Shown: one piece after another, positions 23,101 through 58,810 of the stretch
How positions within the stretch are numbered: the first letter of the stretch is position 1
Layout: each line of letters begins with the position of its first letter
Source: Dysidea avara
Lineage: Eukaryota > Porifera > Demospongiae > Dictyoceratida > Dysideidae
Direction of reading: 5' to 3'
NCBI RefSeq assembly: GCF_963678975.1
Contig: NC_089276.1
Span: forward strand, 22,241,059-22,305,058
Length of the DNA: 64,000 bases
The notes under the pieces: model-generated
Database searches by the model: none
What the model saw: the letters and a program-made list of their open reading frames with translations, nothing else
Told to the model about the DNA's origin: nothing
Translations under genes and position numbers: made by a program

Positions 23101-26100
23101 CCAGACTTGGAGATAATCACTTCAACTGTCAACATGTTTACTGTATTATTATAAGGCCATGAAAAGTCAATTATATGTTTCTGGTTCCCTTCCTGGTCAT
23201 TTTTTTTGCAGACTGAATTACACAATTACCATACAATAATTCATAACATTTTGTATCTGTTGAAAGGTTCATGTCTTGTAAACACTCTTTTTTTCTAATA
23301 AAGATGCACAAACTTTATGTTAACCTTGCTTTTTCCTATAATCCCATGTACTGCTATGTCAAATGTAGTGTACCACATCAAAAATTTGCAAAAAAAAAAA
23401 GAAAGCCTGGTCACTTGGTCAATTTGGCCTAATGTATTTCGCGGACTGGACTCATACACTGAGCTGGAAACAGCTTTTAACCAGTAATCCAGGCATTATC
23501 CATCTCTTGCAACACTGGAGACACCACTATCGAGCTACAACTGCTGGCACTGCTCTTCCTTACAAGTCAACAAACTAGCGCATGCACTAAATAATTAGAA
23601 TACACTTACAACACACTAGTACTAGCAGTGATAAAGCGTGATAGGGGCTATTGTTGTAGCGTAGGTGTCTTCCCTCTGTTGCTTCAGTACTTAGCACTAG
23701 TGTTTAGGGTTGTAGTGATGAGCCAATTTATTTGCATAGCCCCATCACCTCAAATTGCTGGGCGGTGCCACGCACCCATAGCTAACCTTCTAAGAATTAT
23801 TACTGGCAAATTTCTACAACCCTAGCACTAGTGCTAAAGCAATAATGGAAAACATCTACGCTTCAACAATAGCCTCTATCACGTTTTATCACTGCTAGTA
23901 CTCGTGCATCGTAAGTGTATTCTAATTAATTAGTGCACGTGCTGGTTTGTTGATTTGTACGGAAGCGCAGTACCAGCAGTACCAACAGTACCAGCAGTTT
24001 TAGCTCGATAGTGGTGTCTCCAGTGTTGCAAGAGATGGATAATTCCTGGATTATTGTTTAAAAGCTGTTTCCAGCTCAGTGTGTAAGTCCAGTCCGCGAA
24101 ATACATTAGGCCGGCCAATTTTGGGGAATTGGTAGGACCAGAAACATAGAATTAATTTTGCACAGCCTAAACAGTACTAGAATAAGTCATGAGATTTTAT
24201 GTGTGGTTTCAACCAGGCAATTTTTGTGCACTCTTATCATATCAAACAGTACGGTAGTACTGTTTAAGTAGGGTTTGCATCAAAAGTGACGTGTGCCGCC
24301 AAAAATACCGTCTTTAAAAACCAGCTTAGAAACTTCTTACACGATGAAAATCACCTTTACGGAATAATATTAGTCCATCTAACATCAAAAATAGCGTTAA
24401 AAACAAGAAAACGCTTACTGGCAGCCAGATATAGAATTTTTTTTAAAATTGCCAAAACTCGAAATTTCGTCTCTCACTGACTGACTGACTGACTGACTGA
24501 CTGACCACAGTTGCAAGCCTAGAGCCCAAACGAAGCAGCGCATGGTCACCATTTTACGCCACAACAACAAACTCACTGATGGGATGTGCCTTTTGGGGTT
24601 CCGACGAGTGTGTACCCTGTGTGCCTTGTATCTTCAATCAGGCTGCTTGTCTTCTTCTTCATCCAACGAAACCATATTGAAGCGTTAATTTTCCATATCA
24701 ACACTTTCTTTAAGCAGCATAATAGATGCCACAAAATTATTTAAGGCGCTTAGACTACGCTACTGTACGGAGGTACCGGTACTCCACGATAGGTCACAAG
24801 ATCACGCCCATTCTATTATCAATCAAGACCATGATGACCACACCCCCTTTTATGCTGTGACCACACACCTTCAAGTTGGTAGGCTGATTCGAGATACTCT
24901 AGTCTAATAATTGATCGAAACCATGATGACCACACCCTTTTTGGGCGAGCACACATCTTTGCAGGTTGACTCGAGATACTCTAACACAGCAGTCACCCTA
25001 ATAAAACAGTCACATATTTATAGCTAGCTGTATGCTTTAACAAAAAAAAAACTAAACAAACTAGTATCAAGAGTCATGTCCAGACTCTTGCTAGTATATT
25101 AAATATTATAAATTTAAAAATGAAGTAGGGTTCCAAGCGATAAAAAGTAGTGAAACAAGAGATGAAGCAATGGCAGCTATTACAGCATAGCTCAGTGTTA
25201 AATCCCTACTTTGGTATGATATAACAATTATTTTGTGTTCAATGCCAAAGTAGGGATTTCCCACTGAGCTATGCTGTAATAGCTACCATTGTTCATCTCT
25301 TGTCTCACTACTTTTTATCGCTTGGAACCCTACTTCATTTTTAAATTTATAATTTGTAATATACTAGTAAAGTTATATAATGGATCTGTGGTTGCCACTG
25401 TGTAAACAACAACTCAATAATCAAATTCCTTGTTCTATAGCAAGTAATTTGATATTAGTTTTATAGGATTATATTTAGTATAGTTTGTAAAATATAACAA
25501 TTTATTGGAGCCTCTACAAATTTGGCCTTTAACACACATAGTGTGTTACACAACAAAACATCTCAACCCCGAGTGGTGTAGTAGATGGAGAAGTGGTTTT
25601 TTTGATAACACATATATTATCAGACACACTTACCCATATTAGTAGGATAGGTTTCTCTATTTTATCATTGCTACGATGAGCGGTCCTTGCTCTGGTTTTA
25701 AATACCATACGATAATAGTTTAAAGCAGCAGTACAAGCCCCTGGCTTAGAAAATGTATACTTGAATGTTTCCATTACTTCTTTGGAAAACCCTTCTTTGT
25801 TTATCAAACCCTACACAATGATAGTACCAACACTACTTCATGTTAGCTACACACTTACCATTGGCTTTGAAAGGAAAACTCTTTCCAACATCTTGTAGTC
25901 CCTGGCACTCATCATAATCTCAGGAAGATACGGTAGTTGAAAGACAAAGATGTACTACCAGTGAAGATATAACGTGATCTATGTATAACAGTGACTAACC
26001 CAAGACTTCATCAGTTGTCCCCACTTGGAAAAAGCCTTTGCAAAAATTCTATGATGAGATTGATAGCTAGTTGATGCTACATAATCCACTCAACTAACTT

Positions 26101-29100
26101 GTGATGTGGAGAATTCATCATCACTAAATGATCAACCAACTCTGGATGACTATCAATCACCTTCCTGCAAAATTAATTCATACTAAATGACTAGAAAATG
26201 TAAGAAATTATGTTATAAAATTTTCAAGGTTTGATAGTAGTGGGGATTCGTCATATTATACCATTCAGCCGGCAGACTTTTTGAGAACAAAGTATGAAAA
26301 TATGTGACCACAACAAGTGATTGATAGCCTTGTGTGACACAACGGCAGAGTCTCCAACAATAAAGTGTCAGTTTTGCAAACATACACATGTACCTTGAAA
26401 AAAATTTAAAAACAGTAATTTTTTCTTACCAAGCAATACCTCCTCCCCAATCATGAGCCACTAACACACAAGAACTGTATCCTAGTGCTGGTATTAGTTC
26501 TGCTATATCTTGTGTTAGTTTGTCCAAATGATAATCTTTTTGATTAGGAGGTCTCTCTGTGTCCCCATAGCCTCTGTGTGAAGACAAACATGTGAGTTAC
26601 TAACAGACAAGCAAATGGAGTGTTACACCAGTAGCTATGGATAATGAGTTGAGGAGATTTTGCTAGTTGTTGTAAGTTGTTACGTGAATGATTTTGCTTT
26701 TGTCTTGAAGAGACCATGTAGCTTGGTTAACAGAGTAAAACACAATTCACATTTGAAATTAGTAATATTGTTTGGGAAGATTGGTTACAGACATACGCTG
26801 CAACACTTTCCAAGAATGGATCAGGAGCTGGCAAGGGGAGAGGCACACACAGGTTAAGATACAGTTGGTCATGGATATGGTGTAACGTGCGCTCAATTTT
26901 ACAATCAGATATTCAGTGTTTGATATTGCTTCTGATTGATCTAAATGTGATAAATAGAATAGTGGCATGCAATGTTGATTTTAAAGATCTAAAGTAGCCG
27001 ACTCAAATTCAAACACACTGGTATTGCAATGACTGCTTTATTAGAGTATCTTGAGTGTTTATATATTAAGGTTACGGTCAAGTCAATCTAGGTAAGCCAA
27101 CGTGGAAGTGGAAGGGAGTGCCATTAGGGCCGGTATAAAATTACTAAAATAATATCCAGGGAAGCCAAAGCGTGCACTGAAAAAATGTCATTAAGTGTAC
27201 CACATTGTGTAATATGCCATAAAATTTAAATGGAGATTGTGCCAAGGCTAGATTTTGTGTTTGGTTTTTAGTGCTATTTACCACTAGGGTAGCGTAAATG
27301 TTGTGTAAATGAGTTGATAAAAGCTTGTTAATATATTTGGTAATGGTTTAATTGTAGTATGGCAATGACTTCTTCTGTCTACAAGGCACATCAAGGTTAG
27401 CACTGTAATTAGTTCTGTAAGGCTTATAGCAAATATCAGCTTAGTGAAACAAAGCTTGTTGGGTGCTTATATCTGTGATACACTGTCAGTTCTGTTAGTG
27501 CGTGGCACTTGAATGACATCACCTATTATTTGTGGTTTCTTTGGCATTTCACTACAGTATACTAGTACTTCACGTCAGTTTTCTATAGTATACTACTAGA
27601 TAGGCTAGTTGTTGTGGCTTAGAACAGTTCAGTAGTAGTGGGTGCAGGGACAGATACCAAAAAAGTGCTTTTAATTACATTTTCTTAGCAATACTGGAAG
27701 GATTTGTGTGAAACTTTGAAAATTTAATAACTGTTTTCATGCACTACACTCTGATTGCTATCCCTGCCCATGTTGTCTGCTGGCTGTTTTTCACTAATCA
27801 TCTTGGTGAAAATGGTATTAGTTTCCCAGCAATTTGACCTGTAGTAATGCTTCGAAGCCCTTCACAAACCACACTATAACTCTTGAGCAATTAACACTAG
27901 CAGCTTCGAATTTCCCAACCTGTTAGACTAGTCTTTGGAAAGATGTGTGCGTATTATTAGCAAAGGCGAGTTATCACCGAAAATATAGCATGCAGAATTT
28001 TGTCTATTTCCGGTTGACCATAACCTTAATGTGGTTTTATTTATCTAATAATAATATTGTTAATTTTTGAGGACAAAAATTTCACAGACAGCCAACTGAG
28101 CCAGGAAAACATGAAATCCACAAAAATTATGCCACTCGAAAATTACGGTATCAGGTATTTGAGCATTTATAGTATTTGTTTTAGCAAAGGAAACCATACC
28201 AAGGTGTTAATCTTCATATTGACAATTTCCTTAGAGAGCTTACTTTGCTGTATATACAAGGGAGTATAGCCTTACTTATAAAGCAATTGCATGGTGACCA
28301 TACCAAGCCCGTACACTTAGAGCAGCATAGCAACCATGCCCCTTAATGATCTAGTTGCAATCAGCTGCAGTTTTTCAAAACATGGCAACCACGTCCCTCT
28401 CTGAAGTAAGGACTTATCCTATGGACTCAATTACTTACGACTTATTTGCTCACATTTCCTCCATGTAAAACAATGATACCATGATGCTACATTCTATTGT
28501 GGTAATGTACACATAAGCCTAGTTATTAATTTGAATTGTTTATCTTAATCATGTTCTACCACCACTCTTTGACAAATGAAACATCACTACAAGTACATAA
28601 GAATGTACAATACAATCCATAGCTTTCAGCAAGCAGTTGCACATACTACACTACATACACATGCTCACACACGCATGCAAGCACACACACTACACACACA
28701 CACATGCATGCACACACACACACACGCACGCACACACACGCACACACTACACTACACATATCACACACACATCACACACACACTACACTACACACATCAC
28801 ACGCACACTACACACTACACTGCACCACACATCACACACACACACACTACACTACACACATCACACACACTACACTACACACATCACACACAACACACAC
28901 ACACACACAAACACACTATACTACACTACACTACACTACATATATCACACACTACAGTACACACATCACACATACCACACACACACACACTACACACACA
29001 TACACTATACTACACTACGTATATCACACACTACAATACACACATCACACATACCACACACACACACACATACACTATACTACACACACACACATACACT

Positions 29101-30256
29101 ATACTACACACGCATACTAAACACAAGTCCACCTCAAGTCCACTGCTACTGCATAATAATCTCTACAAAATTCCAGTAACTGATATCTCCATGAGAACCA
29201 AAACTACACCACACAACAGAATCCATTTCATGATCATTTTTATATTATGTACATACCTCTGGGTAGCCATGTAAGAACAACATTAGGGGTTTTCCCTCAG
29301 TACCATTAGCAACATAATGGAACTTGATACCATTGGCTGTAACATACTTGTGAGTACCATAAGATGGATCTTGTAGGATTTCTGGTTGAACTGTGTGTCA
29401 GAATTTAATCAAATAACACATGTTCACCAATGCACGAATTATTACAAGCTAATCACATAGAAGACTACAGCTAAAGACACATGAACAATTTTATTGCCAT
29501 CAAAACATTAACAACAGTATATGCCTCGATCGATCATAACAACAGCCTCTAACATTTAAACAGAGAATTAACACAACAGAGAAAACAACAGTGTGCACCT
29601 CATCCAGGCCAGAGTACGGCTGTATGCAGTTGAACCTCAGTGGGACAGTAGGTCAGTCAGATGTCGACAGTCTATTTCTATTATAAGATTAGCAGCTTTT
29701 CAAGCCATTATTTGCCAAAAAGCTGCATAAAAGCATGCTTTCACTTGTATCTTCCTTTTTAAGTTGCAAAAATAACACAAACATGAATTTGTGCCAATTT
29801 GATAGCACTGCTGACACTGTTACAAGATGGCTTTTACTGAGCAAGTACAGAATGCAAGATATCCAACAGTAACCAGATGCGGGCGGTGGATGGGAAACAG
29901 AGAATATTGGAGTGGCCTAGTCATAGATTTATAAACCTATGGCCTAATGCTTTACAATCCATCCAAAGGAGTATTTGCGGCGTGCATGCGGGCGGGAAAT
30001 GAATCTACTTGGAGTGGCCGTATAAAAATGGCGAAATCCCAGACCGAGATTAGTGATGCGGCGGGGATCATTTCTCATTAGTATTCAAAACACGTATGCA
30101 GGTATGAAGGGGGAACAAATACTCACCATCTCGTTTCTTCTGGTGAAAAAAGGTCAGCGGATGTTTCACGAACTCACACATCGCCCTGAGTGCGGCACAA
30201 GAACCGAAAACAATGACCATACCGCAATACACTAATCCAAATATTAGCTTCTTCAT
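14106..30256 (-). CDS. Epoxide hydrolase (EPHX4-like), intact copy 1
   Basis: This is an alpha/beta-hydrolase epoxide hydrolase of 344 residues, expected to add water to epoxides from the membrane face of the endoplasmic reticulum. Exons in coding order on the minus strand are 30256-30127, 29390-29257, 29203-29133, 26573-26430, 26164-26099, 26048-26000, 25954-25859, 25810-25634, 14320-14247 and 14199-14106. All junctions are GT-AG and in phase, and the frame is unbroken. Residues 1-25 form a membrane anchor (MKKLIFGLVYCGMVIVFG). The oxyanion motif HGYPE ends exon 2, the nucleophile Asp153 lies in AHDWGG, the cap has FQLPYLPE and NYYR, the acid Asp293 is in WGDDD, and His321 is in CSHWVQQD. 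Exon 6 is one codon shorter than in the copy at 50,421-58,810. Intron 8 spans 11.3 kb because of transposon insertions. The final exon is inferred to use acceptor CAACCAG, the only one that keeps phase. Confidence 0.85.
14791..15255. mobile_element. 465-bp MITE with about 75-bp inverted ends
   Basis: The left end reads inward from AGTTCATAATATATAT through CTGAGGAGAGTGTCCTACTC and TACCCCTGTAGAAGGG to GAAGTTATGAC. The right end is its inverted copy, ending TTTATGAACT. It lies in intron 8 of the epoxide hydrolase, on the gene's 3' side. No coding capacity and no clear target duplication were seen. Confidence 0.75.
15883..18508. mobile_element. 2.6-kb insertion with inverted ends and TTTAT duplication
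   Basis: Inverted ends of about 38 bases, diverged outside but identical over GGGATTGGAAACGGAA, bound the segment; TTTAT flanks both sides (15878-15882 and 18509-18513). The regions just inside the ends are promoter-like: CpG-containing, with CACGTGAG and ACTTCCGTTT near 18,455. The only coding relic inside is the reverse-transcriptase fragment at 16,402-17,430. Whether the element carried the LINE fragment or the fragment landed in it later is unclear. Confidence 0.65.
16402..17430 (+). pseudogene. LINE (non-LTR) reverse-transcriptase fragment
   Basis: The conserved block LLFLIYVNDLPSQ, then the catalytic YADDTTI, followed by NKMTVNYSKS, KYLGLIFDERLTW, ESLVFSHLIYCLPVWGP and RMQNRAVRLC, identify the second half of a LINE reverse transcriptase of the Jockey/CR1-related kind. 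It is broken. The motif PQGSALGP lies just upstream in another frame near 16,515-16,540. After the stop at 17,292 the usual C-terminal TMWWNALPEEM continues in a different frame (about 17,320-17,420). The endonuclease and first protein are absent. It is a dead fragment within intron 8 of the epoxide hydrolase, in the opposite orientation to that gene. Confidence 0.9.
18726..19975. other. Intron sequence with a triple copy of the dispersed motif
   Basis: No gene can be supported. At 19,098-19,180 three copies of GACTGTTCTATTAGAGTAT-like sequence follow one another at intervals of about 30 bases. A 96-codon open frame at 19,685-19,975 has no recognisable features. Confidence 0.45.
19976..20350. 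repeat. Two direct copies of a unit of about 230 bp
   Basis: The blocks AAGTTCCACCTGACTGACAA, ATCACGTGACCTATTTAGGG and TATTGATGGCAGTCCATG appear first at 19,973-20,125 and again at 20,207-20,330 with many differences. The second copy lacks short internal stretches. Function unknown; the sequence lies in intron 8 of the epoxide hydrolase. Confidence 0.7.
20351..20941. other. No gene recognised; short GGAGGTTCAGTAA repeats
   Basis: At 20,503-20,580 the words GTGGAGGTTCAGTAA and GTGGAGGTTAGTAACGAAA recur three times and give a low-complexity open frame. Nothing supports a gene. Confidence 0.4.
20942..22086. mobile_element. 1.1-kb element with TACAGTGRAAACC-type ends and internal duplications
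   Basis: The left end TACAGTGAAACCTGTCTAA and the inverted right end TACAGTGGAAACTGTCTAA look like Tc1/pogo-type termini starting at TA. Inside, one block (TCAAGGTTCGGGG ... GTGTGCGTGGACTG) occurs at about 21,186-21,355, 21,375-21,535 and, shortened, 21,722-21,820. A second block (ATTACCTCAAGGGTGTGAT ... AGCATGCGGTTCTCT) occurs at 21,017-21,160 and 21,562-21,705. No transposase was found. Confidence 0.7.
22087..23416. other. No gene; fragment of repeat family R and a TAC microsatellite
   Basis: Apart from a short (CTA)n run at 22,728-22,750 and an inverted scrap of family R near 22,895-22,935 (GCACTACCGTGAGTCTTGAT-like), nothing is recognisable. It is part of intron 8 of the epoxide hydrolase. 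Confidence 0.45.
23417..24121. mobile_element. 705-bp foldback element
   Basis: Arms of roughly 300 bases run inward from TTGGTCAATTTGGCCTAATG and its complement through CGCGGACTGGACT, CTGGAAACAGCTTTTAA, TTGCAACACTGGAGACACCA, GATAAAGCGTGATAG and CTAGCACTAGTG to a centre near 23,760. No coding content. It lies in intron 8 of the epoxide hydrolase. Confidence 0.8.
24243..24690. repeat. Dispersed repeat family with ACTG run, copy 1
   Basis: The segment opens with ACAGTACGGTAGTACTGT, has AAAAACCAGC near 24,317, a run of seven ACTG units at 24,478-24,505, and TGTGCCTTTTGGGG near 24,587. The copies at 37,566-37,880 and 53,592-54,010 have the same order of blocks. No coding capacity is shared between copies. 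The class is unknown; the ACTG run could be an expanded internal microsatellite. Confidence 0.6.
24691..25090. other. No gene; tandem-like segment ending in the dispersed motif
   Basis: Between 24,820 and 24,990 a block of about 100 bases (GATCGAAACCATGATGACCACACCC ... CGAGATACTCTA, in part) occurs twice in a row. It ends with two motif copies at 24,964-25,010. The rest is unassigned. Confidence 0.45.
25091..25367. mobile_element. 277-bp hairpin element
   Basis: Arms of about 125 bases (CTAGTATATTA, AATGAAGTAGGGTTCCAAGC, GATAAAAAGTAGTG, AGCATAGCTCAGTG) surround a 30-base loop near 25,220. A degraded relative lies at about 30,655-30,860. It sits about 270 bp beyond exon 8 of the epoxide hydrolase, inside its intron 8. 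Confidence 0.8.
28640..29118. repeat. Compound (CA)n / CACTACA tract, about 480 bp
   Basis: Nearly pure CA-rich sequence mixed with CTACACTACA and ACACATCACAC words. It lies in intron 3 of the epoxide hydrolase just beside exon 3. A shorter tract lies in the same position next to the broken exon 3 at 47,490-47,660, so it predates that duplication. Open frames on it are artefacts of composition. Confidence 0.95.
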
Positions 30257-31689: not shown

Positions 31690-32027
31690 GTGCATCACCA
31701 TTAAGTATCATCCAGAGTTGGTTGATCATTTAGTGATGATGAATTGTCCACATCATAAGTTAGTTGAGTGGATTACGTATAACATCAACTAGTTGTACTT
31801 CTCATCACAGACTTTTTAGAACGACTATTTCTTCCAACTGGGGACAACTGATCTTGGGTTATATCAAGAGTCCATAACATAGACCACACTATATTCACTA
31901 GTAGTATACATCTTTGTTTTTCAATTGCCATACCTCCCTGAGACTATGATGAGTGTCAGGGACTACAAATTGTTGGAAAGAGTTTTTCTGTCAAAGGCAA
32001 TATACGTGTGTAGCTAACATGTTCTAA
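31690..32027 (+). pseudogene. Epoxide hydrolase exons 5-7, inverted and broken
   Basis: Three exon relics lie on the plus strand, opposite to the intact genes: exon 5 at about 31,691-31,759 (CATCCAGAGTTGGTTGATCA), exon 6 at about 31,813-31,855 and exon 7 at about 31,908-32,006 (GACTACAAATTGTTGGAAAG). Introns of the usual length separate them. Exon 6 has lost part of its start and the donors are damaged (GTTATA, TACGTG). After exon 7 a little of intron 7 remains (GTGTAGCTAACATG), and at about 32,027 it joins intron 3 sequence in the opposite orientation. It cannot make an enzyme alone. Confidence 0.85.
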
Positions 32028-35806: not shown

Positions 35807-41021
<5,215 letters not shown>

Positions 41022-44264: not shown

Positions 44265-44600
44265 CTCAAAGTCAGCCATAGGCTGGTTTTGGGGCCTTAT
44301 AAAGTACAAAAAGAAGTGAAATTCACACAAAAACAGCCAAGCTGTGAAAAAGTGGTGCGACCTTAAAAAGCCTGGGTGAAAAAAGTTTTGAATCAAAGGT
44401 GGCTACCAAGAAATGGCTGCAATGATGTTAATGCTAAAAAATTTTAATAATGGCTGTGTGCATTGCTAAAATTTATTAGCATTAACATCATTGCAGCTAT
44501 TTCTTGGCCGCCACCTTTGATTTCACAACTTTTTTCACCCAGGCTTTTTAAGGCCACACCACTTTGTCACAGCTTGGCTGTTTTTGTGTGGATTATAATA
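44265..44600. mobile_element. Foldback element, family F1, second copy
   Basis: AGTCAGCCATAGGCTGG, AAAACAGCCAAGCTGTGAAA, AAGGTGGC and AAGAAATGGCTGCAATGATG, then the same blocks inverted ending AGCTTGGCTGTTTTTGTGTG. The loop (TAATAATGGCTGTGTGCATTG) differs from the copy at 7,333-7,783. Arms show more differences, so it is older. Confidence 0.8.
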
Positions 44601-46724: not shown

Positions 46725-47489
46725 TGTACTGTGTGGTAATGTATTATCTACTGTACGTGTGTCTATACAGGAGCATTTAGATCATATTCAATGTCTGATG
46801 TATAGTTTGTAACTAGTAGCTTACTATGTAAGGAAAGGAATGTTTCTGTCAACAAATTCCAAATCTCTTGATGATGAAAGTATCAGTATCGCTCGAGATT
46901 GGCTGGTGAGTTAATTGTACACAAAATGGCTACCATTTGCATATCTTTTTGTATTATTGTAAATTTTAGATTCCTGCTTCAGTCATAGTCTACTCCTGAT
47001 CTCATTCCCGAGCCTCAATGCTTTAAATGAACTAGAAATACAGCTTGTACATACCTGTGATTTCATGTGTGGTGGAGAGTGATGTTTGATTTGTTTAAAT
47101 TTTTGTATGCCATTATAGACTGCATTACATTTCTTCATATTTTGATGTCAGTGTTCAGCTGCATTTTAAATGAACATTTTACAATTGTATGTGTGTGAGT
47201 AAATGAATTGTTATTTGAATGCAATGCAAATTGATTTATAATATTCTGTAATACAGCACTGCTGTTGTTCACTCTGACTGCACATGTAGCTATCAGCTGT
47301 TTGCATAGGGTTATAGGCTTGGTAATATAGGAAGTCGGAATCTTTGTAAAGGTATTTCACCACAAGCTAGAATGTAAATATTTAGGCCATGCCAGATTAA
47401 TTTTCTGTTTCACAGATCTGGGAGGTCCTTTACATTGCTAAAAAAATTCTTAATAGGATGTGAGATCTTGGGTTATTGACAGTGACACA

Positions 47490-47550
47490 CTACACACACA
47501 CACACACACACACTACACACACATACACTACACACACACACACACACACA

Positions 47551-47592
<42 letters not shown>

Positions 47593-47660
47593 CACTATAC
47601 TACACACACACCAACACTACACGCACACTACACACACACACACTACACTATACTACACAC
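47490..47660. repeat. (CA)n tract beside the broken exon 3
   Basis: About 170 bases of CA-rich sequence with CACTACA words, equivalent in position to the tract at 28,640-29,118 next to exon 3 of the intact gene. Confidence 0.9.
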
Positions 47661-47896
47661 ACTAAACACAAGTCCACCTCAAGTCCACTGCTACTGCATA
47701 ATAATCTCTACAAAATTCCAGTAACTGATATCTCCATGAGAACCAAAACTACACCACACAACAGAATACATTTCATGATCATTTTGATATTATGTACATA
47801 CCTCTGGGTAGCCATGTAAGGGGATTTCCCTCAGTACATTAGCAACATAATGGAACTTGAAACCATTGGTTGTAACATACTTGTGAGTACCATAAG

Positions 47897-48310
47897 TTTT
47901 GCTAATTGCAAAATTCAATAGAACTTGGCTATAAAATTGTATAATATGATCCGCTTTTATTTGGAAGCGAAAATGGATAAAAGTTACCATGGGGATAACA
48001 GGGTAATCTTGTTTTAGAGCTCATATTGATGACAAGGTTTGCTACCTCAATGTTGAATTGTGATATCCTGAAGGGGCAGGTTCTTTCAAGGGTTGGACTG
48101 TTTGTCCATTAAAATCGCACATGATTATTTGAGTTTAGACTGGCGTGAGCCAGGTTGGTTTCTATCTTCAATTATAAAAAGAGTTCCGGTTATTTGGAGT
48201 ATGAAAGGAAAGAAAGTTAATTGTCCTCTGGTTAAAAAACAAATAGCAAAATCTAAATCCATCTGTCTAAAATTAAATTTTGTAAATAAGACTAATACAA
48301 AAATTTAATT
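47897..48310 (+). pseudogene. Nuclear copy of mitochondrial large-subunit rRNA (NUMT)
   Basis: The stretch reads as the 3' domain of a mitochondrial 16S/LSU rRNA. It has ATAATATGATCCGC, then ACCATGGGGATAACAGGGTA at the peptidyl-transferase region, TTCAAGGGTTGGACTGTTTG, CGTGAGCCAGGTTGGTTTCT and a GAGTATGAAAGG relic of the sarcin-ricin region neighbourhood. These are the most conserved parts of the molecule, recognised from memory. A lone fragment with no mitochondrial genes around it, next to a hydrolase exon relic, means insertion into nuclear DNA. The left limit is sharp at 47,896/47,897; the right limit is uncertain and could reach about 48,415. Confidence 0.85.
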
Positions 48311-48415
48311 AGAGATTACAAACATCTAAGAAAGTTCAGACATTTGCCTTCAAGATTAGGGGGCTTAGCTAGGTTACTAATTTTTTAATACAAAAAAACC
48401 AAATGAAGCAATTTG

Positions 48416-49550
48416 GTTGAATTGTATGTAAAATATAAACAGATGCAGAGGTGGGGGTGACTAGTAACTAGTTACACTGTAACTATTAGTAATTACGTTC
48501 GAGCACTTCAATTTTTGTGCTATGGCCACATTAAGTAGATACTTTCTGTTTACTGTTCTTCATGATTCAGCTTGAGTAACAGACGTAACAGTTGAAGCTG
48601 AGCTGAAATGGTAACAGAATCATTATTTTCAGAAAGTGTCCATATAATAATTATTGTAGTTCTCTTCTCCCTTGCTCTGGGCAAATAATCATATTACAAA
48701 AGTTAACAAACAAGCGTAACTTATTATGAAAGTAACTAGTAACTAGAATTAAATTATACTTAGTTACATTTTAAAAAGTAACTATATATAACTAGTACTG
48801 TACTCATGCATCAGTTACATGGGATAAAAGTAACTAGTAACTAGTTACTTTTCTGAAGGAACTACTCCAACTCTGAACAGATGTACATATTGTAAATTGG
48901 AGCTGAAGCTTGAAGAAACTTTGAAAAGTTGGGGGGAGGGCTAAAGACACAAACATATTAATTTTGCTAAAATATTTCAGTAGCTGTGCTGACATGCCCT
49001 CCAAGATAATTTCAAAAAAAATTATATAACAAATGACTGCTTTATTAGAATATACCCATTATGTAGGTGAATAATTTATGTGACTGCTGTATTAAAGTAT
49101 CTCGATCTCAAAGTTGGGGGGGGGGGTTAATCCTCTTTAGTTCCACCTCCCACCACCTGCACCACTGTACATTATAGCATGTAAGAAGTATTGGGTGCAC
49201 TACTATGCAAATGAACTGTCTATAGGCCAATAGGCTTTAATATATACTAAAAAAACATTGTCCTGAGTACACTGTATATCATAATAACTATTATGTTAAG
49301 TAGCACATGCATGGTAGCAAAAACTGAGGTGATTGCCTATTAAGTACATACATGTATTGTATTTACAGTATGGCCTGGAGGTATGATTTGAGCATATCAA
49401 ATGGGATTTGTCAAATCAGTATATCAAAATAAAAATTTTGTAATAATCATGCATTAAATTAATATCTGCTTTATTTCACAAACTCAGTCTGGTCAAACAG
49501 GTTGACCAAAAACAAAAATTCATTATTTCTTGCCTAATACAAAATACCGT
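48416..49550. other. No gene; ACTAGTAACTAGTTAC-type repeats
   Basis: Between 48,455 and 48,860 the words AGTAACTAGTTAC and TAACTAGTAAC recur in both orientations, likely the two ends of a small inverted-repeat element (48,456-48,870). Motif copies lie at 49,034 and 49,080. Otherwise unassigned. Confidence 0.5.
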
Positions 49551-50420
49551 AAACAGATGTTCACAAACCCCCACATTGCTCTGAGAGTGGCACACAATCC
49601 GAAAACGATGATCATACCATAATACACCAATCCAAATTATTAGCCTCTTCATCTGAAGGCCTTGATTCGTTGCAGTGGCATATTATTTTTAATCTTATAT
49701 CTGAACAAATTCATGTACGTGAATCACTGGTACCAGTTACATATAGCTGGCTAAATATATAATCCATCTTTATTGGGACTGATGGGACATGTTAACCATG
49801 CAGTGATAAAACTGAAGGTTGTAGAAATCTCAATCAGTCAGACAAGCATAAATGGATGGCTGCAGGATAGAGGCTGCCCTGGTTTCCTTTCTGCAACTTT
49901 TCAAACACACTTAATATAACATTTTAAAACAGGCTGTAGGACTTACAGCACTTGTGCTGTAAAGCCTTAATAAATAAATAGCAGAGAGAAAACCATGCAC
50001 CAATGATTAAAGATGACAATTTTGTATAACAACTGAATTAATACAAGTGAGTACTCCTATATAGATTTGAAATCCCAGGAAATAAGAATCCATAGGAAAC
50101 AACTTTCTTTGATTCTGTACAGTCCTGCTCCACATCACCAGTGTTATGAGATATTACTGTTAAACAGAAGGTACAGACTAGCCATTTTACAAAACAACTG
50201 AAGTATAGCTTTAACATTCAAATACGCACATGTGATCAATAGCTTTTTGTCTTGATTCTGTTGTGTAAATATTGTTAAACTAGTTATACCTTGAAATAGA
50301 ACACACTGGTACACACTGTATTAGCAAGTATTACACACATGTAATCATTCACATTACATAATGATTATCTACTGTCCATGTAATATTCTACACACCACAC
50401 ACTGTTGTTAACATATTCAG

Positions 50421-53400: not shown

Positions 53401-56400
53401 TAATTAAGCAATAATGGCATTGATTTAGTGATTCAAAATCTTCCCATGATTTGCATTATGAGCATCACCTGTAGATAAATGCCAGAAAAATTCAGATTTT
53501 GATTGGTCATTTTTCACTATATTTATGAGTAAACACATTCCCAGAATTTCTGGAGCTGTTCATGTTATTAGTTGGTCAAGTTCACTTTATCATACAGTAC
53601 GATAGTACTGTATAGTAGGGACCACAAAGGTGTAGGTGTGGCCCATGAAAAAAACATCACCAAAAACCAGCCTTGCTTTTCCCAGACGATGGTGAGGCAG
53701 TATTGGTTAGGCAAAACTAAGCCCAAACAAGCCTTGAGATTGACCTGAAACGCTTTCAGCAAGTTGCTACGGAATTTAAAAATAAATTATTTAACAGAAT
53801 TTTCTAGTGACTAACTGACTGACTGATTAAGTAACTGACTGATGCCTTTAGACAAGTGTAACTCGATATCAGCTAAGGCTACTGGCTTGTCACTTTGGCC
53901 TGAGAGGTGCCTTTTGGCATACCACAGTACGTACAATGTATTCTTCATGGACTTACCAGTGTCCTCCTTTGTGTCCCATTCAGTTGATTTGGCGGTAGCA
54001 CACGATGGCTTCCCCTTGTAACGGAAAGTGTCCATATTTTCATAGTGGTTACTTTGATTGCAAAGGTGCTTTTCGAACAGTTCTTGATTTGTAATACTGT
54101 GTAACGGGTCTAACATAGCTGACAATGGAGCGTAATGCATGGATACTTCACTTTTCAGACGATGATCGATACAGCTGGGGCATGCGGCACCATTTCTTTG
54201 GCAGCATGCATGGGCTCACCAGTCATAATAATATATTACAAAAAGTTAACAAACAAGCACACAAAAAAATTTGGAATTTTCAACTAGAGTAGGGACCATA
54301 GCACATTGATACAAGGTGCTGAAACAAACTGGAGTAGTGCATGATATTATATCACAGTAAAACAATAAGAAGTGTTAAGTAGGGATATAACACTTCTTAT
54401 TGTTTTACTGTGATTTGATATCATGTGATGCTATCTACACAAGTATGTGACGCTAGACAGACCAGACCTATAATTTCTAATAGAAGGGGTGGACATGCCA
54501 GACTAGGATCCAACATTGTGCAGTAAAATACAATCTGTATATTGACATGATGATCCTTGTCAGGCCTTTTCCATTTGTAGTTCCCATTACCACTTTCCGT
54601 TCTTGTTCCGTTCCCATTTTATTGACTGCAAGTATATAGCATAAATGATGAAAGTTTGGTGACATACGTTTGATGAATCAGCATCCAAAGTACGTAGGTT
54701 GGCAGATGAAAGTTTGGTGAATATATCATGCAGTCAAAAAAAATAACTAATTGGTAAACAAAGTTCCTTCGATTCACTAAATTTGCCCAAACTTAAGTCA
54801 CACCAAACTAACAACATTTACGGTACATGCAATAATGCTAAGAGAGAAAATGTAAAAGGTATGTAGGCATACACACTACACAAAAAGAAAAAAGTTACAT
54901 GAAAAGGGCGTAAAGGGCAATGGCATACAGATCACTAATCTAAGAGTCTATCACACTTGTCACAAATCAAAGCTACATGATCTGAATATGTAAATCATTA
55001 CAGTTTATATCTAACTAAAGACACATGGTCTTGTATTAACATTTACTTACCATTGCTTTGGAAAAGAAGACTCTTTCCAACAACTTGTAGTCCCTGGCAC
55101 ACATCATAATCTCAGGAAGGTACGGTAGTTGGTAGACAAACATGTACTGTCAGACACATGACATAATGACAAAGTGATCCATAATAGTACTACACTGACT
55201 AACCCAAGAGTTCATGAATTGCTTCCAGTTTGAGGACACAGTCTTCATGTATATTCTATAACGAAACATAAGGAATTACTGTATGTACAGTGACTTCCCA
55301 TTACTATACAAAACTGACTTGTAATGTGGACAGTCCATCACAACAAAACGATCTACCAACTCAGGATGACTCTGAATTAGTGTCCTTTACAACAAGGTAA
55401 TCAAATGAAATTTGTAAATACATGATGGTCTTTACCAGGCCAGCATTCCTCCCCAATCATGAGCCACTAACACACAAGAACTATATCCTAGTGCTGGTAT
55501 TAGTTCTGCTATGTCTTGTGTTAGCATCTCCAACTGATAATCTTTCTTGTGAGGAGGCCTCTCTGTGTCTCCATAACCTCTGTGTAGACACAAATATGTG
55601 AGCTACTGTAAGCGGGAAATTCTGAGGGGAAAATTTTTCACATCTGTGGATTGGTTCCAATCTGCAAAATATTCCCCATTTGAAATATGCGGCTTGGTCG
55701 AAATGGCATTGTTTGTAACATATGAAGAAGCAACATTTCCTCCTCAAAAATTTGAATAATAGCCATTCGCAAAACATTTCCCCCTCAAAAATATCTCACT
55801 ATGCAGTATCACATTACTCAATCAGCAATACTTCAACATACGTACTGAGCTGTCTTGAAATTTCATAATATTCTGCAGCACACTTAAATACCAATACACC
55901 TAGGCCTGCTTCTATTTAAATCAGTTGTAAACAGGGTATTATACTTCTTGTTTCAATGTTTTTACTCAGCGTTCTAACAGTTCACGCTGTGTTATACAAT
56001 ACTAGCACGGAAACTGTACATGTGAGTAATTAGCCACATGGATAAGTCCACAGGATATAACCTTTTACAAGAGAAATGGTGGAACTAAAGGTACAGTACA
56101 TAAACATACATGAAAGTTTACATATAACAACGGATGGGAATTATTCTCAGTTATTTCTAAGTCTGAGATATTTTGTACAAGAACTCATTGGTAAAACACT
56201 CAATTCCTCTAATAAAGCAATCTTTTTTGTCATTCTGTCGATAGAATATTTAAATACTACTGACAGATATCCAACTGACCACTGTTAGTTTACTGCTAGT
56301 ACATGTTGATGATGTACCTAAAATACTGCGCATTTTATTACACACTCTACACACATGCACATGTACAGACACAGAGTTAGATAGACATCACACATGTACA

Positions 56401-58810
56401 TACACTCGCACATACACACAGACCACAATGTATCTAGCACTATAATAGGTACTTGTACACACCTTAAGTCAACAGCTACTGCATAATAATCCCTACCAAA
56501 TTCTGGTAGCTGGAATCTCCAAGAAAACCAAAACTAAAGTAAGCAACAACAATCATAATATGGAAATGTTGCTTTGTTAACACAGACCTCTGGGAATCCA
56601 TGTAAGAACAGCATTAGGGGTTTTCCCTCAGTACCATTAGCAACATAATGGAACTTGATACCATTGGCTGTAACATACTTGTGAGTACCATAAGATGGAT
56701 CTTGTAGAATTTCTGGTTGAACTATATATTAAAAAAAACAACAGGCAATTAATGACAGTATGATGATGAGAGACGTCTTATTGATTGTATTAGGACAATA
56801 TACAACACAAGTACAGGGGTCTAGACTCAGGGGTACCATTCCCTGATACCAACATGATGGTCAATACAGGAGTCCTGGCAAGATCCTGTATGGGCAGGAG
56901 ACAGCAATGTGAGCAGCCTGCTCAAATAGGGACCTTATAAATTTCTGCATCACTTGATTAGCATTAACCACTTGGGCAATTGTGTCTGGCATGAAATGGC
57001 CAATCTCGATGGAAATGAGATTAACAGATAAGCCAGAAAGCTGAAGGTCATATTGTAAACAGCTATATTGATCTTACTTCCGAGCTCTAGCAACCAAAAG
57101 ATGTTTGTGAGGATAGTTTTTAGTTCGAACAAAACAGATGGAATTAATTATGAAACCCTTCCTGTGCTTAAGTATAATAAGTACAAGAAGCTGGCCAAAT
57201 TATAAATATACCATATAAGTAAGAAGCAGCAGGTTTTTTCAGCTGGTTACCAGCTGAAAAAACTTTGTAGCAGCTGCCTGTGACAGGTCACAAGTTTCAT
57301 TAGTTGTAGTAAGCCCTGTTCTACAAATTAAACCATTGCAAGACCTGACCTTCACTTAAGACTTGGTGCTTATTTCAGCCCAGCTTTAATACGGTATACA
57401 GTAGGCCTAGCTGGCTATTATACAGTAGCATATTTTATATTAGAGGTTTGCAGTTTCTCAAAAAAAGTCTTGACCTGAAACCAACCTCATAATACCTTCA
57501 TGGCTGCTAGGCAGTTCGTATAATGCTTACACTAGTACTATGTAACAGGCTGAACATAGCTAAAAACAGAACTTTACTTTTTTTCAGTGATTTAATTATA
57601 GCATTTAAACCAAGAGTTAATAATAGTGGAGAGTGTGTCTAACACAATACAGAGCCTCTGCAAATGATTTTGTGTGATTCAAAGGGATTCTCTCAGACAT
57701 GCTAACAAGAGCACACTGGCAGTAAAAGGAAATATGATTGCACACTGGAAGAACAAAGAAATGTGATGATTAAAACAATCTTCACATATAGAATATACTA
57801 CAAATCACAAAGTTTTACAGAGGAATCCTTTTCAATCACACTAAATCATTTGTAGAGGCTCTGTATTGTGCTCTCCACTGTTATTAACTCTTCATTTAAA
57901 CGGATGTCAAAATCCAGTCAAAATTTTCAGTCAGCTACATGAAATCTTTTAGTTGACATTTGGTCAGTAACATCTCAAGCTAAATGCAAGAACACATGTT
58001 AACATTATTCAAAGGAAGTGGTTACTGAACCGAAAGTTTTTTTTTTGTTTTTTGCGGATAACACAAAATAAACTGACAGTCATCCATCTACATGAACCAG
58101 TTGTATGTTAGGTTGGTATGCTCCCAGTATTCGACTTTAGGGCACTCCCCTAGTAATTGCCTAGAATATTCAACTTTAGGGCACACTACAAGTAGTACGT
58201 ATTAGCATTAGGGTTAGGGTCGGGTTCAGCTTTGGCTTCTTCTTCATCTTTAAGTTACGTTCTTCTTACTATAGTACAGCTTACTTCTTGACTCACATTT
58301 TTTATAAGATAGAAAAGTAGGGGAGGTGGGTACAGCTAGCAGTGATAGCACACTGACCCAGCACACCAGTTGTTCCCCAGATAAGTTTTGCGGGGTTTTT
58401 TTCTCTCGTTTTAGTAACCCTTTTTTCTGTCAGTTCAATACCCAGTACAGTTTATTGCACTGACTGTCCACTACCTTGTTAACACGTAAATGACAGCATT
58501 TAGTCTATTATTTTTAATTTAGCCAACATTTTAGTATGTTGATGCTCCAAGCCACGCACATGCGATAACAAGCTGCAAAGGATTTGGGCGTTACATGCAA
58601 GTGACATAGTTCATATAAGGCTATAAGGCATCAGCTTGTTATTAGAATACATGATCAATCGTGACAATTATCGCGCTCACCGTCTCGTTTCTTCTGGTGA
58701 AAGAAGGTCAGAGGGTGCTTCACAAACTCCAAAATCGCCCGAAAGGTAGCACAAGAACCCCAAACGACGATCATAGAATAATACAATAATCCAAATAGTA
58801 GTCTGTTCAT
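50421..58810 (-). CDS. Epoxide hydrolase (EPHX4-like), intact copy 2
   Basis: A membrane-anchored alpha/beta-hydrolase of 345 residues predicted to hydrate epoxides. Exons in coding order: 58810-58681, 56721-56588, 56533-56463, 55579-55436, 55384-55319, 55255-55204, 55146-55051, 53201-53025, 50635-50562 and 50514-50421; all GT-AG and in phase. Residues 1-25 (MNRLLFGLLYYSMIVVWG) are the anchor. HGFPE at 84-88 is the oxyanion motif, Asp153 in AHDWGG the nucleophile, YQLPYLPE and NYHRN belong to the cap (Tyr263 a likely epoxide-activating residue), Asp294 in WGDED the acid and His322 in CSHWVQQD the base. Length and architecture match EPHX3/EPHX4. The last two exons are nearly identical in DNA to those of the 14,106-30,256 copy while middle exons differ more, suggesting gene conversion or recent exchange at the 3' end. 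Confidence 0.9.
50727..51357. mobile_element. Composite hairpin element with two tandem units, in hydrolase intron 8
   Basis: It begins with a hairpin (50,727-50,870): GTTAGACGTCAAGAACCA, GGTTCTACGGGAT and GGCCCT, then the same inverted. Two direct copies of a unit of about 190 bases follow (from 50,877 and 51,073), sharing GACTACAACTC, ACAGCTGCTTGTAA, ACACCTCCCTA and ATGCCCATGCGTTGCCAATG. A second small hairpin (GTGGTCTCT ... AGAGACCAC) and an inverted TAGACTACAAC close it at 51,354. It has no gene. Confidence 0.75.
52554..52584. repeat. Perfect 31-bp palindrome
   Basis: AACTGTACTGTATGA, a central G, then its exact complement. Imperfect arms (ATTATCTGCAT / ATGTAGCTAAT) extend it outward. 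It lies in intron 8 of the hydrolase. Confidence 0.9.
53592..54010. repeat. Dispersed repeat family with ACTG run, copy 3
   Basis: ACAGTACGATAGTACTGT start, CACCAAAAACCAGCCTTGC, AAGCCCAAACAAGCC, a short ACTG run at about 53,811-53,845, GTGCCTTTTGG. An open frame of 109 codons on the minus strand (53,811-54,140) overlaps the copy; I do not recognise it and the other copies do not share it. Intron 7 of the hydrolase. Confidence 0.6.
54351..54414. repeat. Perfect hairpin with 27-bp arms
   Basis: Arms from ATCACAGTAAAACAATAAGA to GTGTTA and their exact complement surround the loop AGTAGGGATA. A further pair, CATGATAT / ATATCATG, extends it. It lies in intron 7 of the hydrolase. The small size and perfect arms suggest a recent MITE or a structured RNA segment. 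Confidence 0.9.
55604..55808. mobile_element. 205-bp MITE in hydrolase intron 3
   Basis: TACTGTAAGCGGGAAATTCT and the inverted TACTGCATAGTGAGATATTT start at TA. The inner GAGGGGAAAA-type words link it to the TACCGTATAGC-type element at 11,943-12,134. It begins 24 bases upstream of the start of exon 4 of the hydrolase, in the intron. Confidence 0.65.
57600..57905. mobile_element. About 300-bp MITE in hydrolase intron 1
   Basis: The arms start GCATTTAAACCAAGAGTTAA and, inverted, TTTAAATGAAGAGTTAATAA, and continue through GTGGAGAG, ACAATACAGAGCCTCTGC and AATCACAC-like words for about 95 bases. No coding content. Confidence 0.8.

Follow-up and report, generated by a model that had tools for sequence, protein, structure and literature searches.

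A young copy of paralog sequence adjoins a mitochondrial-type rRNA fragment in a broken epoxide-hydrolase-like gene copy of the sponge Dysidea avara

The stretch of Dysidea avara DNA analysed in this study (64,000 nucleotides, hereafter the window) contains three epoxide-hydrolase-like gene copies, named A, B and C, all of which lie on the minus strand. Within copy B lies a fragment of a large subunit (LSU) ribosomal RNA gene. The features of the locus, with exon edges taken from splice sites in the aligned sequence, are as follows:

30,256 down to about 25,629, minus strand: copy A, which matches C over several exons
29,133-29,390, minus strand: exons 2 and 3 of copy A, the source of the patch in B or its closest relative, from the alignment to the B piece
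47,485-47,670, no strand: AC microsatellite bordering the A-like patch on its left (Tandem Repeats Finder, 47,485-47,662/47,670)
47,661-47,896, minus strand: young copy of part of gene A (the patch), which adjoins the rRNA; 231 of 236 aligned bases equal to A 29,116-29,363, plus 12 gapped positions
47,661-47,677, minus strand: patch, piece of intron 3, 17/17 identical to A
47,678-47,748, minus strand: patch, exon 3, 71/71 identical to A
47,749-47,801, minus strand: patch, intron 2, 51/53 identical to A
47,802-47,896, minus strand: patch, exon 2 minus its first 27 bp, 92/95 identical to A, plus 12 gapped positions
47,897-48,384, plus strand: 3' part of a mitochondrial-type LSU rRNA gene, best read as a nuclear copy of mitochondrial DNA (NUMT), from Rfam, E. 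coli alignment and motifs; right end approximate
48,382-48,433, no strand: hairpin (inverted repeat) at the rRNA end, in mitochondrial spacer or nuclear flank
48,446-48,875, no strand: non-autonomous hAT-like element, with the 8-bp duplication AACAGATG at 48,438-48,445 and 48,876-48,883
49,526-49,655, minus strand: old, frameshifted exon 1 remnant of copy B, matching A exon 1 at 82/99 aligned bases
58,810 down to about 53,020, minus strand: copy C, which matches A over several exons

Peptides from these copies were compared with Pfam and the PDB, both at E values up to 1. Pfam returned Abhydrolase_1 for one of four peptides and nothing for the other three (exon 1, exon 2 and B exon 2), while 31 PDB sequences were retrieved, the best of which is an epoxide hydrolase (2.9e-4). 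Comparison of copies A and C revealed that exon 2 of A (29,257-29,390) and of C (56,588-56,721) agree at 123 of 125 compared bases, as against 76-91% agreement in four other segments (P from 0.005 to 4e-8 for the difference from exon 2). Exon 2 of A and C is thus likely to represent a gene-conversion tract between the paralogs, and this exon looks prone to conversion. A weak match between 53,588-53,671 and 24,240-24,325 was left unused as its position breaks the order of the remaining exons. An element of approximately 310-330 bp is repeated at 25,839-26,149, 31,708-32,021 and 55,045-55,377, including copies within the A and C gene regions. Elsewhere in the window, self inverted matches define large palindromes, perhaps foldback elements, at 23,426-24,112 (alignment length 720, 78%) and 44,320-44,594 (276, 88%), and a tRNA-like sequence at 36,981-37,053 (33.6 bits, uncalled by ARAGORN) is perhaps a tRNA-derived repeat or pseudogene.

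An Rfam scan of the whole window gave two matches that reach the gathering threshold, the strong one being to LSU rRNA on the plus strand at 47,994-48,156 (126.3 bits, E 3.4e-37). In a scan of 581 bases, the bacterial LSU model aligned to 47,880-48,169 (142.2 bits, E 1.6e-44, with the match cut off at the 5' end of those bases), and the eukaryotic LSU model, applied to a smaller stretch, extended the match to 47,910-48,160. Rfam matches to U4, U6atac, EBv-sisRNA-1 and mir-1537 were under the gathering score and were taken as chance. The individual pieces were then assessed by alignment to one E. coli 23S gene, with 500 shuffles as the measure of chance. The score of the core (47,994-48,169; 102.5) was reached by none of the shuffles and that of the left 99 bases (47,897-47,995) by three, while the 3' part (48,170-48,390) was not significant against this gene (32/500), and neither were its halves (48,170-48,290, 393/500; 48,290-48,390, 129/500). 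The 3' part from 48,170 to about 48,384 was assigned as rRNA on motifs rather than on alignment score. The sarcin-ricin loop motif AGTAYGARAGGA has a single occurrence in the window (48,198-48,209; 0.03 expected); downstream of it lies ACATCTAAG, ending at 48,330, an arrangement seen in none of 100 shuffles, for a spacing range that was picked after the sequence had been seen; and an end of the form TACTAAT was recognised by eye near 48,380. An earlier sequence-only reading had placed the plus-strand 3' domain of a mitochondrial LSU rRNA at 47,897-48,310. The domain and its strand are confirmed by the bacterial-model match (142 bits, E 1.6e-44), and its sharp start by the end of gene homology at 47,896; the proposed end is probably too short, as the rRNA motifs run on, to about 48,384. 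The fragment would thus span, in natural order, the region from approximately E. coli position 2340 through to the rRNA 3' terminus. The eukaryotic alignment had at first suggested that the L1-stalk region is deleted, an idea that was abandoned since the bacterial model aligns 47,897-47,943 contiguously, although weakly. Positions 47,990-48,007 are one mismatch away from what we take to be the I-SceI recognition site; I-SceI targets this conserved rRNA stretch, so such a near-site is expected.

The choice of a mitochondrial rather than a bacterial source is a judgement, which is based on the A+T-rich, divergent form of the rRNA and on its nuclear-looking surroundings. Bacterial rRNA matches, of which the best three of 5384 and the best ten of 462 records were considered, all fall in the 60-80% identity band. 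The listed 23S matches in E. coli genomes cover 47,972-48,167 at 66.2% identity with an E value of only 0.01, and the plasmid-borne rRNA matches among those listed display about 70% identity (E 1e-14). Pattern scans with degenerate rRNA-core patterns found no match in viral contigs or in genome contigs, and no mitochondrial protein gene was recognised by eye among 33 code-4 frames to the right of the rRNA.

To the left of the rRNA, homology to copies A and C ends at 47,896 and the rRNA begins at the next base, leaving exon 2 of copy B without its first 27 bp. The sharp junction inside exon 2 that the sequence-only reading had described is therefore upheld, as is its view that the gene copy is broken: exon 1 of B (tblastn match at 49,526-49,636, 59%) carries at least one frameshift, and peptides of two later exons, taken from A and from C, found no match in B. 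The same reading had also placed the rRNA in an intron, which suits the remainder of the fragment, between exon 2 and the exon 1 remnant, and not its left end, which lies in exon 2. At the other edge of the patch, the AC microsatellite has a longer counterpart at the same place in copy A (approximately 28,640-29,115, by eye). A search to the right of the rRNA for the start of A exon 2 and for intron 1 did not find them (the best local score was 29, and 100 shuffles gave scores of up to 39), and the longest word shared with A on that side is 12 bases (null mean 10.2, maximum 14, in 200 shuffles). The patch is also not a perfect copy, as it carries three exon 2 substitutions and lacks 12 bases at places where A and C are the same. 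The direction of copying, from A to B, is indicated by these differences within exon 2 only (A equals C at the three sites where B differs).

To the right of the rRNA, the element at 48,446-48,875 has the ends CAGAGGTGG and CAGAGTTGG, whose alignment score of 34 exceeds the maximum of 500 shuffles (30) by a small margin. It is flanked by an 8-bp target duplication (AACAGATG, present twice) and has terminal inverted repeats (CAGAGNTGG ends), features that we take to be those of the hAT superfamily, hence its naming as hAT-like. Between the rRNA and this element, the hairpin at 48,382-48,433 has a fold z of -4.26, with one of 200 shuffles as stable, for a stretch that was chosen after the repeat had been seen. 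It may constitute a sponge mitochondrial hairpin element, by analogy with those which, in the part of PMC2800124 that was available, are present in several demosponges and lacking in four marine haplosclerids. The right end of the mitochondrial DNA would fall between about 48,384 and 48,437. Homology to an organelle gene (LSU rRNA, 142 bits) is hence combined, in the assembly, with nuclear DNA on both sides, namely a spliced gene copy on the left and the hAT-like element and exon 1 remnant on the right. The rRNA fragment is best read as a NUMT, and a NUMT of approximately 490-540 bp without function of its own, i.e. an ordinary type of genomic fossil, is the best explanation of these features.

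The pieces that meet in copy B appear to be of different ages. The patch is 97.9% identical to A (231/236), as compared with 82.8% (82/99) for exon 1 of B, which lies 1.7 kb away (Fisher P 2.3e-6), and the difference persists when only the non-coding bases of the patch are considered (68/70 versus 82/99 for exon 1, P 0.003). On these alignments, exon 1 of B is far older than the exon 2/3 piece. For the rRNA, none of the 44 modelled base pairs within 47,994-48,156 is broken. In simulations of 4000 copies per divergence level, the chance of no broken pair was 0.34 at 2% divergence, 0.07 at 5%, 0.016 at 8% and 0.45% at 10%, which fits a young rRNA core that is comparable in age to the A-like patch and not to exon 1; the pair model covers the core, and 48,170-48,384 lies outside its coverage. 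In the left part of the rRNA, eight positions are marked as non-standard pairs in the bacterial-model alignment, reflecting either misalignment or decay. Furthermore, at 24 of the 92 columns on which the bacterial and eukaryotic LSU consensus concur, the window departs from them, and six of the seven CpGs common to both appear as TpG or CpA, and so does the sarcin-ricin CpG (relative to E. coli); the CpG ratio of the window is 0.39. These consensus differences are in part ordinary mitochondrial divergence and may in part be decay after insertion. The sequence-only reading had dated the rRNA event as later than the duplication. This holds to the extent that the rRNA did not arrive before the adjoining exon 2/3 copy, but is not supported for a single duplicate that was subsequently broken, as there are two ages. 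A single duplicate interrupted by an insertion indeed fits poorly, because the patch is much younger than exon 1 of B and because no A-like sequence was found to resume to the right of the rRNA. As the neighbours of one fragment can differ greatly in age, the rRNA alone does not date "the duplication".

The order, the identity and the two ages of these pieces are observed at the locus, and the following steps are proposed for their origin. A double-strand break would have occurred in the old pseudogene copy B and would have been repaired with copy A, some 18.5 kb away, as the template, through synthesis-dependent strand annealing or gene conversion. Copying perhaps started in the shared AC repeat and would have stopped early, inside exon 2, whereupon the new end would have been sealed by end joining to captured mitochondrial DNA, bridging to the far side of the break. 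That a break in the old pseudogene was patched by copying from A and that the copied end was joined to mitochondrial DNA is, on the sequence evidence, the account that we favour as on balance probable. The narrower proposal that the join at 47,896 stems from one repair event, i.e. that paralog synthesis was cut short and its end sealed with mitochondrial DNA, such that NUMT edges can mark aborted gene conversion, is put forward as possible rather than probable. Against the favoured account, a deletion that struck the NUMT at a later time would likewise have eliminated A-like sequence on the right-hand side, and the non-standard pairs in the left part of the rRNA and the 18.5-kb distance to copy A weigh against this account as well.

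The foremost alternative is that two events took place, in which A-like sequence replaced or duplicated exons 2-3 in B and mitochondrial DNA was later inserted at 47,896 with loss on the right. It predicts the same two ages, and end joining alone is, in the available part of PMC2567098, the usual mode of NUMT insertion; however, it needs a deletion that left nothing of the patch on the right side of the insertion, and the same source gives no deletion in 54% of numt integrations, for which reasons we regard it as rather unlikely. It was also considered that the A-like and mitochondrial pieces were both captured randomly at a break and came to lie near the old exon 1 remnant by chance. While chimeric captures of two donors are known (PMC2671141, as far as the part at hand goes), the A-like piece has the order and orientation expected of a gene copy relative to exon 1, so that homology-directed copying is favoured over random capture, which we deem improbable. 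An assembly chimera, in which real mitochondrial DNA or an A haplotype was joined to the locus, would be suggested by the fact that one flank nearly duplicates sequence located elsewhere in the window. This explanation is more doubtful still, given the three substitutions and 12 deleted bases by which the patch departs from A and C, and given the TpG or CpA at six of the seven shared CpGs and at the sarcin-ricin CpG, which hints at decay within a nuclear genome that is methylated, even if some of these may be lineage differences. Finally, a 23S fragment of a bacterium or symbiont is highly improbable: the best-scoring Rfam model is the bacterial one, yet among the bacterial rRNA matches listed, the best reach only 66-70% identity, over approximately 36% of the query.

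Much of what is seen here has parallels in other genomes. NUMTs have already been described in sponges and cnidarians (PMC12920757 and PMC3716686, each in the part available, with citation of Erpenbeck et al. 2011), and the latter source quotes a mean of 222 bp for those of Amphimedon queenslandica. As in the present case, a few hundred bases of mitochondrial sequence have entered nuclear DNA within or close to a gene; unlike them, the present NUMT adjoins a young paralog copy. In the portion of PMC2567098 consulted, NUMTs are characterised as end-joining patches. A survey of chimeric repair-mediated duplications in vertebrates (Pace et al. 2009, PMC2671141; available in part) found donors mostly within 5 kb and mentions captured mitochondrial DNA as known. 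The two cases share a break filled with copied nearby DNA and a second donor, and at the present locus two donor copies are likewise joined, one of them nearby (the A-like copy and the rRNA). In the survey, however, the two donors both come from the nuclear genome, the close one from within 5 kb, whereas at the present locus mitochondrial DNA is the second donor and the nearby copy is 18.5 kb off, beyond the 5-kb class. Similarly, the mosaic mitochondrial-plastid insertions with long homology of Portugez et al. 2018 (PMC6215612, in its accessible part) are composite and combine end-joining with homology-based steps, but their pieces are organellar, whereas one piece here is a copy of a nuclear gene. 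Among the listed titles and abstract openings of papers that combine NUMTs, strand annealing and gene conversion, none was seen to report a NUMT located where a paralog conversion tract ends, which is a thin basis for absence.

A single NUMT matters little by itself, and only the history of the junction goes beyond the routine. Should the one-event reading be true, the locus would provide a natural example of homology-directed copying and mitochondrial-DNA end joining within one repair, and such cases would be searchable genome-wide as NUMT edges that coincide with the ends of young paralog tracts.
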